From Nocardioides renjunii (lineage in GTDB: Bacteria > Actinomycetota > Actinomycetes > Propionibacteriales > Nocardioidaceae), in assembly GCF_034661175.1 (NCBI RefSeq), contig NZ_CP141058.1, positions 4,154,001 to 4,218,000 of the forward strand: a stretch of 64,000 nt of DNA, in the 5' to 3' direction. Below are positions 1,214-49,943 of this stretch, piece after piece. The notes beneath the pieces were generated by a model. It was given only the letters and a program-made list of their open reading frames with translations, had not been told where the DNA came from and did not search any database. A program made the translations under genes and the position numbers. Position 1 is the stretch's first letter. Each line of letters opens with the position of its first letter.

Positions 1214-1909
1214 GTGAACGAGTCCCGGTCCCGCGTGCTGGTCGTCGACGACGACCGCGCCGTCCGCGACTCGCTGCGCCGCTCGCTGGAGTTCAACGGC
1301 TACGACGTCGTGCTCGCCGCGGACGGCGCCGAGGGCCTCGTCGCCATCGGTGCGCACCAGCCCGACGTGGTGGTGATCGACGTGATGATGCCGCGCCTCG
1401 ACGGGATCGAGACCACGCGGGCGCTGCGCGCGGCGGGCAACGACGTACCGGTGCTGGTCCTCACCGCCCGCGACGCCGTGGGCGACCGGGTGGAGGGCCT
1501 CGACGCCGGCGCCGACGACTACCTCACCAAGCCGTTCGCGCTCGAGGAGCTGCTGGCCCGGCTGCGGGCGCTGCTGCGCCGCGTCGTGCCGGACCCCGAC
1601 GCCGACGGCGAGGTGCTGACCTTCGCCGACCTCACCATGGACGTGTCCAGCCGCGACGTGTCGCGCGGCGGCCGGCCGATCGAGCTGACCCGCACGGAGT
1701 TCACGCTGCTGGAGATGTTCCTGCGGCGCCCGCGCCGGGTGCTCGACCGCTCGTTCATCCTGGAGGAGGTCTGGGGCTACGACTTCCCGACCAGCGCCAA
1801 CTCCCTCGAGGTCTACGTCGGCTACCTGCGCCGCAAGACCGAGGCGGACGGCGAGCCGCGGCTCATCCAGACCGTGCGCGGCGTCGGCTACGTGCTGAAG
1901 GAATCATGA
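1214..1909 (+). CDS. OmpR/PhoB-family response regulator, MprA-like
   Basis: 231 aa from GTG 1214. The N-terminal receiver domain (about 7-118) has the acidic pair in VVDDD, phospho-acceptor Asp56 in [11 protein letters not shown] and the conserved Lys106 in LTKPF. The C-terminal winged helix (about 132-229) includes [13 protein letters not shown] and VRGVGYVL. The gene overlaps the following kinase by 4 bp (ATGA at 1906-1909), so the two form a coupled two-component operon. The closest familiar system is MprA of Mycobacterium, which responds to envelope stress; the actual signal here is unknown. The longer frame back to 533 runs through the DDAH gene and is spurious. Confidence 0.93.
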
Positions 1910-3336
1910 GCTCCTCGGGCACCTGGCCCCCGACCCGCTGGCACTACCGCAGGTCGCTCGCCTCGCGCGTCGCGGTGCTGACCACCGTCACGCTGGGCAT
2001 CACGATCGCCATCCTCGCGCTCACGGCGTACCTCGTGATGCGCCAGCAGCTGATGAGCTCGCTCGACCAGTCGCTGCTCAACCGCGCCCACAAGGCCGCC
2101 GCGTTCAGCGACCTCCGCGACGCCACCGCCCAGGGGACGCCGGCATGGGTGCTGGGTGCGGCCGACGTGCGCATCATCTTCCTCAACGCCGAGGGTCGCG
2201 GCATGGCCGGCGACCACATCCCCAACTTCACGGTCGGTCGCCCGGAGCTCGAGGTGGCGGCCGGGGACCGGGACTGGTCGGTGCGCACCCTCGTGACCGC
2301 CGAGGGGGAGCGCTTCCGGGTCGCGACCGTGCCGTCACCTGGCGGCCCCGCGCTGATGCTCGCGCAGCCGCTCGCCCCCAACGACCGCACGCTGGAGAAG
2401 CTCGGCGGCGTCCTGTTCACCTTCGGCGCCCTCGGGGTGCTGACCGCCCTCATGGTCGGGTGGCTGGTGGCACGCAACGGGCTCAGGCCCGTCCGACGCC
2501 TCACCTCCGCCGTCGAGCACATCGCGGTCACCGAGGACCTGACGCCGCTGCGCGTCGAGGGCGACGACGAGGTCGCCCGCCTCGCCACGGCGTTCAACCA
2601 GATGCTCCTGGCGCTCGCCGCCTCCCGCGACCGGCAGCGCCGCCTCGTGGCCGACGCCAGCCACGAGCTGCGGACGCCGCTGACCTCCCTGCGCACCAAC
2701 CTCGACCTGCTGCGCCAGGCCGAGGGCAACTCCGCCCTGCCGCCGGAGACGCGGCTCGAGCTGCTCGACGACGTGCGCGGCCAGATCGAGGAGCTCAGCG
2801 CGCTCGTCGGCGACCTGGTCGAGCTGGCGCGCGACGAGCCCACGACCCGCGTGGTCGCCGAGGTGGACCTCGCCGACGTCGTCGAGCGGGCGGTGACGCG
2901 CGTACGCCGTCGCGCCCACGGCGTGTCGTTCGACGTCGACCTGGCGGCGTGGCGGGTCGTCGGCGACTCCAACGGCCTCGAGCGCGCCTTGACCAACCTC
3001 CTCGACAACGCCGCGAAGTGGAGCCCTCCGGACGGCACGGTCACCGTTCGCCTGGCCGACGGGGTGCTGACCGTGGATGACGAGGGCTCGGGCGTCGCCG
3101 AGACCGACCGGCCGCACGTCTTCGAGCGGTTCTACCGCGCGGAGGAGTCGCGGGCCATGCCCGGCTCGGGCCTCGGCCTCGCCATCGTGCGGCAGGTCAT
3201 CGACCGCCACGGCGGGCAGGTCGAGGTGTCGGACGCGCCGGGCGGCGGCGCCCGGTTCGTGGTGTCGCTCCCGGGGGTCGCGGGGGTGGAGTCGGTGGGG
3301 GCTGCGGGCTCTCTGGAGTCCCCGGATATCCGGTGA
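1906..3336 (+). CDS. Sensor histidine kinase, MprB-like; C-terminus formed by a palindromic repeat
   Basis: 476 aa. It has a transmembrane helix at about 17-44, an extracytoplasmic sensor region, a second helix at about 166-190 leading into a HAMP linker, and a dimerisation box with His253 in [15 protein letters not shown]. The ATPase domain carries the N box ([10 protein letters not shown]), DDEGSG and GSGLGLAIV. It phosphorylates the regulator encoded just upstream. The protein should end shortly after the FVVSLPG strand; instead its last residues (LESPDIR) and its TGA stop lie inside the 78-bp palindromic element at 3311-3388. The insertion therefore probably rewrote the tail, outside the catalytic core. 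Confidence 0.93.
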
Positions 3337-3388
3337 CCACCGTGCTTACAGGTAGAGATCTCCACCAATAAGCACGGAACTCGGGTGC
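3311..3388 (+). repeat. Palindromic repeat element, copy A (78 bp)
   Basis: It matches copy B at 49064-49141 over 78 bp without gaps at 67 positions. It begins CTCTGGAGTCCCCGG and ends GGAACTCGGGTGC. Its first half is a near-perfect palindrome (3318-3337, one mismatch against GTCCCCGGATATCCGGGGAC). Its second half is a stem-loop with arms CCGTGCTTA and TAAGCACGG. The stem bases differ from copy B, but the differences largely preserve pairing, which suggests selection on structure. It overlaps the last nine codons of the histidine kinase and runs to within 6 bp of the pabB stop. Confidence 0.8.
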
Positions 3389-3393
3389 ACAGC

Positions 3394-4683
3394 TCACTCG
3401 AACACGCGCAGCAGCCGCTCGGCCTTCCACTCCGACTCGGCCCACTCCTCGGCCACGTCGGACTTCACCGTGATGCCCCCGCCGGTGCCGAGCGTCCACG
3501 TCCCGCCGCCGTCGGTGGTGAGCGACCGGATGACGACCCCGAGGTCCGCCGGGCCGTCGCCGCTGATCCAGCCGAACGCGCCGGCGTACACCCCGCGCGG
3601 TGACGACTCGACCTCCTCGATGACCTGCATCGTGCGCAGCTTGGGTGCGCCGGTCATCGACCCGGCCGGGAACAGCGCCCGCAGCGCGCCCACCGTCGTC
3701 ACGCCCTCGCGCAGGTGCCCGCGCACGGTGGAGACCAGCTGGTGCACCGACTCGTAGGACTCGACCTCCATCAGCGCCGGCACCTCGACCGACCCGACGT
3801 CGCACACGAGCGAGAGGTCGTTGCGCAGGAGGTCGACGATCATCAGGTTCTCCGCGCGTGTCTTGGGGTCGGCGGCCAGGCGAGTGCGGTGCGCCTCGTC
3901 CTCCTCGGCCGTGGTGCCGCGCGGGGTGGTCCCCTTGATCGGCTTGGTCTCCAGGTGCCGGTCGGGCGTCACGAGGGCGTACCTCTCCGGCGAGCTCGAG
4001 AGCAGCCATCCGCGCGCGCCCGCGACGTCGTGCTGGAGGAACCCGGAGTACGGCGCGGGGTTGAGCTCGCGCAGCCGGAGGTACGCCGTCACCGGGTCGA
4101 GGTCGGCGACGCGGGTCAGGCGGTGGGTCAGGTTGACCTCGTAGGAGTTGCCCGCGCGCAGGTGCTCCTGGACGCGCGCGAAGGCGGCGGCGTACGAGTC
4201 GGGCGGGGGCGTCGGGCCCCGACTGCCCGAGGCACTTTCGAGCTTCTGGGGGTGTGCACGCCTCGAGATGTTCGGGTTTCCCCGCATATGCGGGGAAACC
4301 ACAGACACAGAAGGCCCGACCCCGTGCTCGAAGACCCGCACCTCCCGCGGCCGCATCCACATCGCGTCGGGGAGGAGGGGGTCGGGCTCGGCGGGGAGGT
4401 CGGGGCGCGAGGCGTAGCCGAAGTAGCCGAACCACTGCTCCCCGGGCCGCATCCGCTCCTCGAGGACCGCGAAGACGTCGTCGCCGACGACCCTCGACGT
4501 CCCGCCGGAGTGCTCGCGGACCTCCCGCCGGGCGGCCGACCAGGTCAGCGACACGTCGTCGTCCTCGAGCCAGCCGATGATCGAGCGCCGACCCGACCAC
4601 TCGCGGGCGCCGCCGCCGTCGAGCCAGAAGCACCGGGCGTGCCGGGTCGCGACGTCGCGGAAGAAGGGGACCGGGTCGCTCAC
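3394..4683 (-). CDS. pabB: Aminodeoxychorismate synthase component I (PabB) with an in-frame repeat-encoded insert
   Basis: 429 aa from GTG 4683, which overlaps the pabA stop (GTGA at 4680-4683). It aminates chorismate to 4-amino-4-deoxychorismate for folate synthesis, using ammonia from PabA. The chorismate-binding half contains GNSYEVNLTHR, LSSSPERYA, the PIKGT motif whose Lys is diagnostic of PabB rather than TrpE (PIAGT), NLMIVDLLRNDL, and FPAGSMTGAPKLRTM. Between the N-terminal domain (ending near EVRVFEHG) and the DSYAAAF segment lies an odd stretch including VVSPHMRGNPN and ISRRAHPQKL. It is encoded by the palindromic element at about 4236-4306 and keeps the frame. It lies in the interdomain linker, so activity is probably retained. 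Confidence 0.93.
   Translation of the reverse strand: MSDPVPFFRDVATRHARCFWLDGGGAREWSGRRSIIGWLEDDDVSLTWSAARREVREHSGGTSRVVGDDVFAVLEERMRPGEQWFGYFGYASRPDLPAEPDPLLPDAMWMRPREVRVFEHGVGPSVSVVSPHMRGNPNISRRAHPQKLESASGSRGPTPPPDSYAAAFARVQEHLRAGNSYEVNLTHRLTRVADLDPVTAYLRLRELNPAPYSGFLQHDVAGARGWLLSSSPERYALVTPDRHLETKPIKGTTPRGTTAEEDEAHRTRLAADPKTRAENLMIVDLLRNDLSLVCDVGSVEVPALMEVESYESVHQLVSTVRGHLREGVTTVGALRALFPAGSMTGAPKLRTMQVIEEVESSPRGVYAGAFGWISGDGPADLGVVIRSLTTDGGGTWTLGTGGGITVKSDVAEEWAESEWKAERLLRVFE
4236..4306 (+). repeat. Palindromic element inside pabB, related in layout to copies A and B
   Basis: The core is a perfect 26-bp palindrome at 4275-4300, with half-site GGTTTCCCCGCAT followed by its exact complement. 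It is preceded by a weaker stem-loop with arms TCGAG and CTCGA and flanked by CTTCTG and CAGAAG. The order stem-loop then palindrome with an ATAT centre is the same as in copies A and B read on their minus strand, and CCTCGA plus TCCCCG-ATAT-CGGGGA are shared. The boundaries are approximate. It is translated in frame within pabB. Confidence 0.6.
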
Positions 4684-46270: not shown

Positions 46271-48267
46271 GGGCTCTCCTCGGGTTCTCCGGTGGCGACG
46301 ACTGCCAGGACCTCCCCGGACGCGACCTGCGCCCCGGGCTCGACGTTGACCTCGGCGACCGTGCCGTCGTGCGGCGCGGTCACGGTGTGCTGCATCTTCA
46401 TCGCCTCGAGGACCAGGACGACGTCGCCGGCGGCGACCGCGTCCCCGGGCTCGACGGCCACCGTGACGACGGTGCCGGGCATCGGTGCGAGCAGGGAGCC
46501 GCTCGCCACCGCGTCGGCCGGGTCGGTGAAGCGGGGGAGCAGGCGCAGGCTCTGCCGCACCATCGAGTCGTCGTCGAGGTGCACCTCGCCCGTCACCGGG
46601 TCGATGTGCACGTCGATGGACTGACGGAAGCCGCCCCGCTCGACCACCACACGTCGCGGGGTCGCCTCGATCACGTGGAGGTCCTCCTCGCCCGCACTCC
46701 GGAAGCCGTCCCGATCGCCGTACCACTCGGCCACGACCGGTTCGTCGCGCCCGCTGACCAGGAAGGTGGTGCGGTGCGGCTGCGAGACGACGTTGCGCCA
46801 GCCGGTCGGCACGCCACGCTGCACGGTGCGCTGCTCGGTGTCCCGGGCGGCGAGCGCGATCGCGGCCACGAACGGAGCGAAGTCCGGGTCGCCAGCCGGG
46901 GCGAGGTCCGCGAACTCCTTGGCCAGCCGGTGTTCGAGCGTCGAGGTCGTCATCGTGCCCGCGAGGGTGTCGCGGTCGCCGAGAGCGGCGATGAGGAGGT
47001 CCCGGTTGGTGGCGATGCCGTGCAGCCGGGCACGCCTCAACGCGCCCCTGAGCGAGCGCAGGGCCGACCCGCGGTCGGGACCCCAGCTGATCACCTTCGC
47101 GAGCATCGCGTCGTAGTGCGTACCCACGACGTCGCCCGAGGCGTAGCCCGCGTCGACCCGGATGCCGTGGCGGGCCAGGAGGTCGAAGGACGTGTCGGCA
47201 GGGACGTCGAAGCGCGCGAGCCGCCCCGCCGTCGGCTGCCAGTCGGCTGCGGGGTCCTCGGCGTAGAGGCGTACCTCGACGGCGTGGCCGCTGGGCGCGG
47301 GTGCGCCGTCGGGGAGCAGCTCGGCCAGGGTCCGACCCTCCGCCACGCCGATCTGGAGGGCCACCAGGTCCAGACCGATGACGCACTCGGTCACCGGGTG
47401 CTCGACCTGGAGCCGGGTGTTCATCTCCAGGAACCAGAAGCGCCCGGTGGCAGGGTCATACAGGAACTCGACGGTCCCGGCGCCGGCGTAGCCGACGGCC
47501 CGGCCCGCCTCCACCGCGGCCTGGTGCATCCCCGCGCGGACCTCGTCGGACAATCCTGGGGCCGGCGCCTCCTCCATCACCTTCTGGTGGCGGCGCTGGA
47601 GCGAGCAGTCGCGGTCACCGAGCGCGACGCCGGAGCCGTAGGTGTCGAACAGCACCTGCACCTCGACGTGGCGTCCGGACTCGACGTAGGGCTCGACGAA
47701 GACGGTGCCGTCGCCGAAGGCGCTGCGTGCCTCCGCCTCCGCCGCAGCCACCTCGGACCCCAGGTCGTCGAGCCGCCGGACGACCCGCATCCCGCGCCCC
47801 CCGCCGCCGGCGCTGGCCTTGACCAGGAGCGGGAGGTCGGACTCGGTGGGCTCGGCGGGCGCCTCGAGGGTCGGCACACCGGCGGCGCGCATGAGCTCCT
47901 TGGAGCGGACCTTGGATCCCATCGCCTCGATGGCCTCAGGAGGCGGACCGATCCAGACGAGCTGACCGTCGAGCACGGCGCGTGCGAAGTCGGCACTCTC
48001 CGACAGGAAGCCGTAGCCGGGGTGCACCGCCTGGCCTCCGCTGGCGCGCACGAGCCGGACGATGCGCTCGCCCTGCAGGTACGTCTCGCTCGGGATGCTG
48101 CCCGGGAGGCGGGCGGCGTAGTCGGCGTCCGCCACGAACGGGAGGTCGGCGTCGGCGTCGGAGAAGACCGCCATCGTCTCGATGCCCAGGCGGCGGCACG
48201 TGGCGAAGACGCGGCTGGCGATCTCACCGCGGTTGGCGACGGCGACCAGCTGGATGGGAGTCGTCAC
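46267..48267 (-). CDS. Acyl-CoA carboxylase alpha subunit (biotin carboxylase plus biotin carrier)
   Basis: 666 aa from GTG 48267 (GTGA overlap with the carboxyltransferase stop). The biotin carboxylase domain begins LVAVANRGEIASRVFATCRR, with the ATP-grasp loop KASAGGGGRGMRVVR and FLEMNTRLQVEHPVTE. The C-terminal biotinyl domain has the biotin Lys in EAMKMQ. It carboxylates biotin with ATP and bicarbonate. With the carboxyltransferase it forms a methylcrotonyl- or geranyl-CoA carboxylase-type complex; the AtuA neighbour suggests terpenoid acyl-CoA but does not prove it. Confidence 0.94.
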   Translation of the reverse strand: MTTPIQLVAVANRGEIASRVFATCRRLGIETMAVFSDADADLPFVADADYAARLPGSIPSETYLQGERIVRLVRASGGQAVHPGYGFLSESADFARAVLDGQLVWIGPPPEAIEAMGSKVRSKELMRAAGVPTLEAPAEPTESDLPLLVKASAGGGGRGMRVVRRLDDLGSEVAAAEAEARSAFGDGTVFVEPYVESGRHVEVQVLFDTYGSGVALGDRDCSLQRRHQKVMEEAPAPGLSDEVRAGMHQAAVEAGRAVGYAGAGTVEFLYDPATGRFWFLEMNTRLQVEHPVTECVIGLDLVALQIGVAEGRTLAELLPDGAPAPSGHAVEVRLYAEDPAADWQPTAGRLARFDVPADTSFDLLARHGIRVDAGYASGDVVGTHYDAMLAKVISWGPDRGSALRSLRGALRRARLHGIATNRDLLIAALGDRDTLAGTMTTSTLEHRLAKEFADLAPAGDPDFAPFVAAIALAARDTEQRTVQRGVPTGWRNVVSQPHRTTFLVSGRDEPVVAEWYGDRDGFRSAGEEDLHVIEATPRRVVVERGGFRQSIDVHIDPVTGEVHLDDDSMVRQSLRLLPRFTDPADAVASGSLLAPMPGTVVTVAVEPGDAVAAGDVVLVLEAMKMQHTVTAPHDGTVAEVNVEPGAQVASGEVLAVVATGEPEESP

Positions 48268-49943
48268 GGCCTGAACACCCCGTATCCGCCGGCACCGGTC
48301 CACGTCGTGTTGCTGATGACTGACAGGCAGATGGCGAGCACGGTGCGGGTGTCGCGGGGGTCGATGACGCCGTCGTCGTAGAGCATCCCCGACAGCGCGT
48401 AGGGCAGCGACTGCTCCTCGACCATCTGCTCGACCATCGCACGCATGCCGGCGTCGCCGCCCTCGTCGTACGCCTGTCCCTTGGCCTCGGCGGCGGCGCG
48501 GGCGACGATCGACAGCACCCCCGCGAGCTGCGCGGGGCCCATCACGGCGGACTTCGCGCTCGGCCAGGTGAACAGGAAGCGCGGGTCGAAGGCGCGGCCG
48601 TTCATGCCGTAGTTGCCGGCGCCGTAGGACGCCCCCATGACCACGCTGAGGTGGGGGACGGTGCTGTTGGAGACGGCGTTGAGCATCTGGGCGCCGTGCT
48701 TGATGATCCCGCCCTGCTCGTAGTCCTTGCCGACCATGTAGCCGGTGGTGTTGTGCAGGAACAGCAGCGGCGTGTCCGACTGGTTGGCGAGCTGGATGAA
48801 CTGCGTCGCCTTCTGCGCCTCCTCGGAGAACAGCACGCCCTGGGCGTTGGCCAGGATGCCGATCGGGTGGCCGTGGAGCTGCGCCCAGCCGGTGACCAGC
48901 GAGGTGCCGTAGAGCGGCTTGAACTCGTCGAAGGGCCGGCCGTTGTGCTCACTCGCGCCGTCGACGACGCGCACGATCACCTCGCGGGGGTCGAACGGCT
49001 CCTTGAGGTCGGCGGGGATGAGGTCGAGGAGGCCCTCGGGGTCGGCGTCGGGGTCGGCGAAGGCTCTGGAGTCCCCGGATATCCGGGGACCGCCGTGCTT
49101 CGAGGTGGAGATCTCGGCCTCGAAGTACGGAACTCGGGTGCGAAGCTCCGGCCTGCGCCGGTTGAGCCGCGCCACGATCCGCCGCCCGATGCGGAGGGCG
49201 TCGTGCTCGTCCTCGGCGAGGTAGTCGGCCAGGCCGGACACCCGGGCGTGCATCTCGGCGCCGCCGAGCGACTCGTCGTCGGACTCCTCGCCGGTGGCCA
49301 TCCTCACCAGCGGCGGGCCACCGAGGAACACCTTGGCGCCGCCGCGCACGAACACCGTGTAGTCGCTCATCCCGGGGACGTACGCCCCGCCGGCGGTCGA
49401 GTTGCCGAAGACCAGCGCGATCGTGGGCTGCTTGCGCGCCGAGGACCGGGTCAGGTCGCGGAACAGCCGGCCGCCGGGGATGAAGATCTCCTTCTGCGTC
49501 GGCAGGTCGGCGCCGCCGGACTCGACGAGGGAGATCGTCGGGAGGTTGTTCTCCTCGGCGATCTGGGAGGCGCGGAAGATCTTCTTCACCGTCCACGGGT
49601 TGCTCGCGCCGCCCTTGACGGTCGGGTCGTTGGCGCTGATCAGGCACTCCACGCCCTCGACCACGCCGATGCCGGTGACGACCGACGCCCCGACGGTGAA
49701 GTCGGAGCCCCAGCCGGCCAGCGGGGAGAGCTCGAGGAACGCCGACCCCGGGTCGACGAGCAGCTCGATCCGCTCGCGGGCGGTGAGCTTGCCGCGCGCG
49801 TGGTGGCGCTCGACGTACTTCTGCCCGCCGCCGGCCACCGCGACCGCGTGCTGCGCCTCGAGGTCGGCCAGCTTGTCGAGCATCGCAACCGCGTTCGGTG
49901 ATCGAGTAGCCGCCGAGGAACGAGGTGGCGTATCGAGATTCAC
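48264..49943 (-). CDS. Acyl-CoA carboxylase beta subunit (carboxyltransferase) with repeat-encoded segments
   Basis: 559 aa from GTG 49943, overlapping the SRPBCC stop by 4 bp. The crotonase-fold halves show SANDPTVKGGASNPWTVKK, SLVESGGADLPTQKEIF, FGNSTAGGAYVPGMSDY, FLHNTTGYMVGKDYEQGG and GASYGAGNYGMNGRAFDPRF. It transfers CO2 from biotin to an acyl-CoA. About residues 268-293 (including EISTSKHGG and RISGDSRAF) come from palindromic copy B. The insert is a whole number of codons without a stop and lies between conserved blocks. The first ~15 residues (NLDTPPRSS) come from a second repeat; an ATG at 49883 is the alternative start. Confidence 0.92.
   Translation of the reverse strand: MNLDTPPRSSAATRSPNAVAMLDKLADLEAQHAVAVAGGGQKYVERHHARGKLTARERIELLVDPGSAFLELSPLAGWGSDFTVGASVVTGIGVVEGVECLISANDPTVKGGASNPWTVKKIFRASQIAEENNLPTISLVESGGADLPTQKEIFIPGGRLFRDLTRSSARKQPTIALVFGNSTAGGAYVPGMSDYTVFVRGGAKVFLGGPPLVRMATGEESDDESLGGAEMHARVSGLADYLAEDEHDALRIGRRIVARLNRRRPELRTRVPYFEAEISTSKHGGPRISGDSRAFADPDADPEGLLDLIPADLKEPFDPREVIVRVVDGASEHNGRPFDEFKPLYGTSLVTGWAQLHGHPIGILANAQGVLFSEEAQKATQFIQLANQSDTPLLFLHNTTGYMVGKDYEQGGIIKHGAQMLNAVSNSTVPHLSVVMGASYGAGNYGMNGRAFDPRFLFTWPSAKSAVMGPAQLAGVLSIVARAAAEAKGQAYDEGGDAGMRAMVEQMVEEQSLPYALSGMLYDDGVIDPRDTRTVLAICLSVISNTTWTGAGGYGVFRP
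49064..49141 (+). repeat. Palindromic repeat element, copy B (78 bp), in frame inside the carboxyltransferase gene
   Basis: Its first half is the perfect palindrome GTCCCCGGATATCCGGGGAC (49071-49090). Its second half is a 13-bp stem, CCGTGCTTCGAGG (49093-49105) with CCTCGAAGTACGG (49118-49130, one wobble), and a loop containing GAGATCTC. The 78-bp length is divisible by three, and the minus-strand reading has no stop, so it is translated within the enzyme. It matches copy A at 67 of 78 positions. Confidence 0.82.
49897..49943 (-). repeat. Short interspersed repeat at the carboxyltransferase start
   Basis: On the plus strand it runs from GGTGATCGAGTAGCCG to GGCGTATCGAGATTCAC. It resembles, from memory, a repeat scattered through Nocardioides-type genomes; only one copy lies in this window. 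Its end supplies the GTG start and GTGA overlap, and its body encodes the first ~15 residues of the carboxyltransferase. Confidence 0.45.

Follow-up and report, generated by a model that had tools for sequence, protein, structure and literature searches.

Palindromic repeats of several unrelated families are read in frame at one interdomain linker of a carboxyltransferase subunit in Nocardioides

Short palindromic repeats of several multicopy families are read in frame at one and the same site of a conserved enzyme in Nocardioides, the linker between the two domains of a methylcrotonyl-CoA-carboxylase-like carboxyltransferase (beta) subunit (MCC-beta), and at this site one family is replaced by another. 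The stretch of 64,000 nucleotides that was analysed (the window) covers positions 4154001-4218000 of the source genome (G000), which is one 4,403,084-bp contig (4.40 Mb) starting at dnaA. Within the window, the MCC-beta gene contains a copy of one such repeat, named here family alpha (Table 1). It is probable that alpha is one of several REP-like, short and non-autonomous families multiplying in Nocardioides genomes, and that the MCC-beta linker has been hit by them repeatedly, with its palindromes being replaced.

The initial annotation of this DNA described an in-frame palindromic repeat of 78 bp, i.e., 26 codons without a stop that separate two conserved blocks. The repeat is real and wider in extent than first claimed, and its 26 codons, open frame, and position between conserved blocks are all borne out. 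The two segments that had been paired, 49064-49141 and 3311-3388, align without a gap over all 78 positions at 86% identity, in agreement with the 67 of 78 identical bases counted before; however, the true element is longer by four bases (CTTY, 49142-49145). Similarly, the perfect 20-bp palindrome stands, whereas the 13-bp stem-loop described beside it turned out to be the better-paired part of an imperfect second palindrome. Comparison of copies places the outer start of the alpha element at CTTY or CTGT, followed by GCACCCGAG (GCACCC...), and its opposite end at GACTCCAGAG or GACCGCC. The pattern of the left-part palindrome, GGAGTCCCCGGATATCCGG, has four matches within the window, with 0.05 expected. 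In the second copy of the window (copy A), the other strand gives the final codons (...SLESPDIR) and the TGA of the plus-strand gene 1906-3336. The encoded peptide had been noticed at copy A as well, and it is present there, on the minus strand and in a frame different from that of the neighbouring gene, but it reads EISTCKHGG...RISGDSR, one residue off the EISTSKHGG given earlier.

The window alpha copy lies in frame in the linker between the two carboxyltransferase domains of MCC-beta. When MCC-beta is aligned to its solved relatives, the match is interrupted precisely at the insert: 29 query residues, lying between the N- and C-terminal halves of the carboxyltransferase, correspond to about 6 in 3u9r, which makes it clear that the insert is located at the domain joint. 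The linker is 132 nt long here, compared with 63-66 nt in orthologues without an insert; therefore, about 15 nt of the old linker were lost or rewritten. The clean 26-residue insertion that had been anticipated is thus present as an added segment, but it is not perfectly clean. The peptide is missing from orthologues without the DNA repeat, and the linker of the closely related strain zg-1308 is identical.

Table 1. Repeats and genes of the window, other in-frame copies, and families of MCC-beta linker palindromes
Feature	Position or locus	Strand	Basis or remark
MCC-beta subunit gene	48264..49889	-	3u9r best solved relative; PF01039; start codon provisional
Alpha type I palindromic element, read in frame (...LRTRVPYFEAEISTSKHGGPRISGDSR...)	49064..49145	-	26 full-length genome copies; ends from copy comparison
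Perfect 20-bp palindrome GTCCCCGGATATCCGGGGAC	49071..49090	.	Palindrome analysis; core recurs genome-wide
Imperfect second palindrome CCGTGCTTCGAGGTGGAGATCTCGGCCTCGAAGTACGG	49093..49130	.	Two 19-nt arms, 84% complementary
Gamma-family repeat at MCC-beta gene 5' end, in gap to upstream gene	49891..49938	-	Sequence census
Copy A of alpha, between convergent genes	3311..3392	-	Comparison with window copy
Second in-frame palindromic insert of the window, in pabB-like gene (3394-4683, -)	4226..4315	-	Just before chorismate-binding domain
Palindrome GGTTTCCCCGCATATGCGGGGAAACC of the pabB-like insert	4275-4300
Two tandem gamma repeats, linker of CobI-CobJ fusion protein	L380:4255-4365 (G000 C1, about 3.964 Mb)
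Alpha type II elements	L028, L030, L061-L066, L068		Same 3' palindrome, unrelated hairpin
Linker family alpha			Window-type element
Linker family beta			CCCCGCACGTGCGGGG
Linker family gamma			GGTCTCGATACG...CTCGACCACC and relatives; often inverted doublets
Linker family delta			CGCACGCCATGGCGTGCG
Linker family epsilon			CCGTTGCAACGG
Linker family zeta			TCCCCGGATATCCGGGGA or TCCCCGGGTACCCGGGGA, twice
Linker family eta			TTTCCCCGG...CCGGGGAAA
Linker family theta			ACGTCATACG...CGTATGACGT
Linker family iota			GAGTCGGCG...CGCCGACTC
Further genomes with multicopy MCC-beta insert	G007, G012/G022, G016, G003, G089, G175, G193, G087, G132, G067, G145, G103, G182

Many more copies exist in the source genome than the two compared at first. 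The genome-wide search that the initial annotation had proposed gave 26 full-length copies (type I) and 38 core palindromes in all; for the core GTCMCCGGATATCCGGKGAC, with up to 2 mismatches allowed, the reversed control pattern had 0 occurrences. With genes outside the window called by a simple codon-usage caller, 36 of the 37 alpha copies examined in G000 are intergenic, and convergent gaps hold 15 of the 25 intergenic type I copies. For most alpha ends, the distance to the stop codon falls in a cluster at 0-50 bp. Alpha therefore has the traits by which REP-like elements are recognized: it is palindromic, present in tens of copies, and placed near gene 3' ends in convergent or co-directional gaps. 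In about a dozen cases, the core is linked to another hairpin, GGAAGATCCGAG...CTCGGATCTTCC (type II elements), which suggests modular assembly of the family. The core palindromes are also clustered round the replication origin: 31 of the 38 lie less than 0.9 Mb from dnaA, where 15.5 would be expected (Rayleigh p about 6e-5, and 0.013 once neighbours are thinned). A search of the genome collection for the palindrome plus TCCAG gave exact matches in 76 stretches, every one from Nocardioides, and alpha matches, mostly divergent, are present in 4 of 24 other Nocardioides genomes. At orthologous intergenic sites of different species, the alpha element is sometimes absent (empty site) or flipped. 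One such site (L024 versus L121 and L106) carries the element in opposite orientation in different species. An Rfam covariance-model search with 11 loci (E up to 1) gave no match, and in a literature search of limited coverage these repeats were not found described for Nocardioides, nor was a paper found on the gamma motif.

The initial picture was that of one insertion in MCC-beta; the insert is real, but its site is a hotspot of many unrelated families. In the tally of 116 Nocardioides MCC-beta orthologue hits, which is the unselected figure (the fetched gene sample is biased to long ones), 56 are lengthened, i.e., at least 1575 bp compared with a base of about 1548 bp. Every hit has a length divisible by three and an open frame. 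Many orthologues, though without the peptide of the window, hold some other insert at the linker, and among the 74 linkers read at least nine unrelated palindrome families were distinguished by an assignment done partly by eye. Each of the nine is multicopy in at least one host genome. In 14 further genomes, spanning all nine families, the MCC-beta insert is multicopy in its own genome; the inserts of G104, G206, and G017 have few copies in theirs. Linkers of at least 84 nt have a mean folding z of -1.85, compared with -0.15 for short linkers and about 0 for control windows of the same genes, so the long linkers outfold both their shuffles and the control windows. Related inserts were found in other genera of the family. 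As dozens of species carry unrelated palindromes at one linker, mobile-looking DNA repeatedly turns into protein there. The turnover of families is also fast. When the ten states (nine families, or no insert) are mapped on a 74-row tree built from the gene minus its linker, 35 changes are required, compared with a mean of 44 after shuffling. Between G131 (gamma) and G136 (zeta), the two flanks of the linker share 95.7 and 98.0% identity, whereas the linkers themselves are equal in length and wholly different, and several other pairs above 94% flank identity also differ in linker family. Because species with 96-98% identity of the gene around the linker can differ in the family present there, the insert behaves as a cassette under rapid exchange.

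MCC-beta is not the sole intragenic site, as the census of a 464-kb sample of G000 and of other loci showed. The sample yielded two more in-frame inserts, one in the pabB-like gene of the window and one in a CobI-CobJ fusion. The pabB-like insert has a related one in N. hwasunensis and a different sequence in N. potassii. Named Nocardioides loci contain 93 alpha palindromes, of which only those in MCC-beta of N. pini, zg-1308, and N. hwasunensis are truly intragenic. The zeta, delta, and theta families (about 55 copies) include one other intragenic copy, in the amidase L268 between signal peptide and catalytic domain, and the gamma family (30 loci) also includes one, L350, before the APS-kinase domain of a fusion. 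The intragenic copies outside MCC-beta, which are fewer than those at MCC-beta, are all at or near domain boundaries. L101 was rejected as an intragenic copy, its gene start having been miscalled, and the weak IcmF match of N. glacieisoli (L121), with no net added length relative to the NCBIfam model, was left out of the count.

We infer mobility of the elements from their copy number, the empty orthologous sites, and the replacement of families. The Y1 (PF01797, RAYT-type) transposase was found in 0 of 20 genomes, with control genomes positive; therefore, the RAYT route of REP elements seems to be unavailable there now. The best flanking direct repeats average 3.4 nt, compared with 2.9 nt for mismatched pairs. 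Neither terminal inverted repeats enclosing the whole alpha element nor a clear target-site duplication was seen, and both GTAG and CGTC tags are absent from the alpha ends examined. The element had been called selfish at first; it is indeed multicopy, but we only infer its selfishness, because the mobilising enzyme was not found. It is proposed that the short non-autonomous palindromes spread by transposition or an equivalent copying, with the help of some enzyme. Almost all copies that survive lie no more than tens of bases from the 3' end of a gene, in many cases in a convergent gap. A minor fraction would enter genes and survive only if the product tolerates them, that is, in frame, stop-free, and in an interdomain linker. 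The linker between the carboxyltransferase halves of MCC-beta would be such a tolerant place, struck again and again, and its palindromes would give way to those of unrelated families at a faster pace than the gene around them diverges. The hotspot may thus combine tolerance with an attraction of new elements to existing palindromes. If about 200 copies per genome land in about 350 kb of permissive sequence, of which the linker offers a target of about 40 bases, chance alone would by our own rough estimate fill the linker in about 2% of genomes. Nearly half have it filled, and this points to more than tolerance, but the excess would be smaller if old inserts persist for a long time. A further proposal, which we make tentatively and would sooner doubt than accept, is that the MCC-beta linker is an active exchange site across the bacterial family, where resident palindromes provoke their own in-frame replacement by unrelated families, e.g., when a hairpin break is repaired with another palindrome or through a palindrome-targeting enzyme.

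Other explanations of these data have to be considered. Family switching could come about if species exchanged short MCC-beta alleles horizontally, with no local insertion, and short replaced tracts within very similar flanks are also expected from homologous recombination. However, the alpha inserts match copies of their own genome and not the MCC-beta copy of another species. The similarity of the window MCC-beta copy to its own intergenic copies is 0.86, and that of the latter among themselves 0.855; for the MCC-beta alpha copies of two species, the values are 0.86 and 0.85 to own-genome intergenic copies and 0.79 to each other. The window and N. hwasunensis MCC-beta copies, at 0.79, are like any two copies from those genomes (0.795). 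As the insert families tested are also multicopy in their own genomes, exchange of alleles is unlikely. It could also be assumed that the palindrome is useful in MCC-beta mRNA, for instance as a hairpin slowing ribosomes between domains, and that selection recruits any available repeat family. The strong folding of long linkers across many unrelated families is in line with this, as are arms that keep their complementarity while the sequence shifts between species. Such a role is nevertheless rather improbable, since about half of the orthologues, close relatives included, have short linkers without an insert, and inserts are also found at other domain joints.

The preference for convergent gaps and gene 3' ends would be explained if the elements were immobile bidirectional transcription terminators, or other functional 3' RNA elements, and the coding copy an accident. 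In-frame copies in the middle of enzymes, the flipped orientation and empty sites among orthologous gaps, and the lack of an Rfam match make this very improbable. The linker might finally be considered a hypervariable GC-rich spacer with chance palindromes, in accordance with its wide variation in length and sequence, but this explanation, which we give practically no weight, is already refuted by the match of inserts to multicopy repeats elsewhere in the genome (E down to about 1e-28).

Repeated insertion and replacement of REP-like families, the reading preferred here, can be compared with known systems. Coding palindromes are known mainly from Rickettsia, where tolerance and targeting are hard to separate. 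The likeness to Rickettsia palindromic elements (RPE) seen in the initial annotation is supported for behaviour, i.e., a multicopy palindrome that is read in frame where a conserved enzyme tolerates it. Both groups comprise short palindromes of several families in frame in conserved enzymes; membership is not claimed. Unlike RPE, the Nocardioides elements belong to another phylum, most of their copies are extragenic, the intragenic ones occur where domains meet, and many families refill one such joint. However, palindromes in ORFs had already been described outside Rickettsia, namely the GTAG and CGTC REPs (PMC3733652). With these, the Nocardioides elements share the placement at gene 3' ends and in convergent gaps, doublets, several families per genome, some copies inside ORFs, and element ends that give stop codons. 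In contrast to them, alpha has no GTAG or CGTC end tag, and the RAYT-type transposase is absent from the 20 genomes. The same survey, which reports REPs inside ORFs in other phyla and mentions neither Nocardioides nor Actinobacteria, describes two Xanthomonas species whose recB genes carry different REPs at nearly the same position (PMC3733652), and this is the earlier case closest to a shared coding site. MITEs and ERIC-type elements, reviewed together with in-frame RPE fusions (PMC10969869), are likewise small non-autonomous repeats able to form in-frame fusions; a difference is that neither enclosing terminal inverted repeats nor a clear target-site duplication was seen for alpha.

The case described here is the RPE phenomenon in Actinobacteria, with a recurrent coding hotspot and the layout of REP elements. 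The novelty lies in the phylum, in how many unrelated families share one coding site, and in how fast they are exchanged. Evolution has tried inserts in this one linker many times, and close species pairs differ mainly in the insert. The linker is a natural experiment on the passage of mobile-looking DNA into protein, on the tolerance of a folded enzyme, and on REP-like spread without a RAYT transposase.
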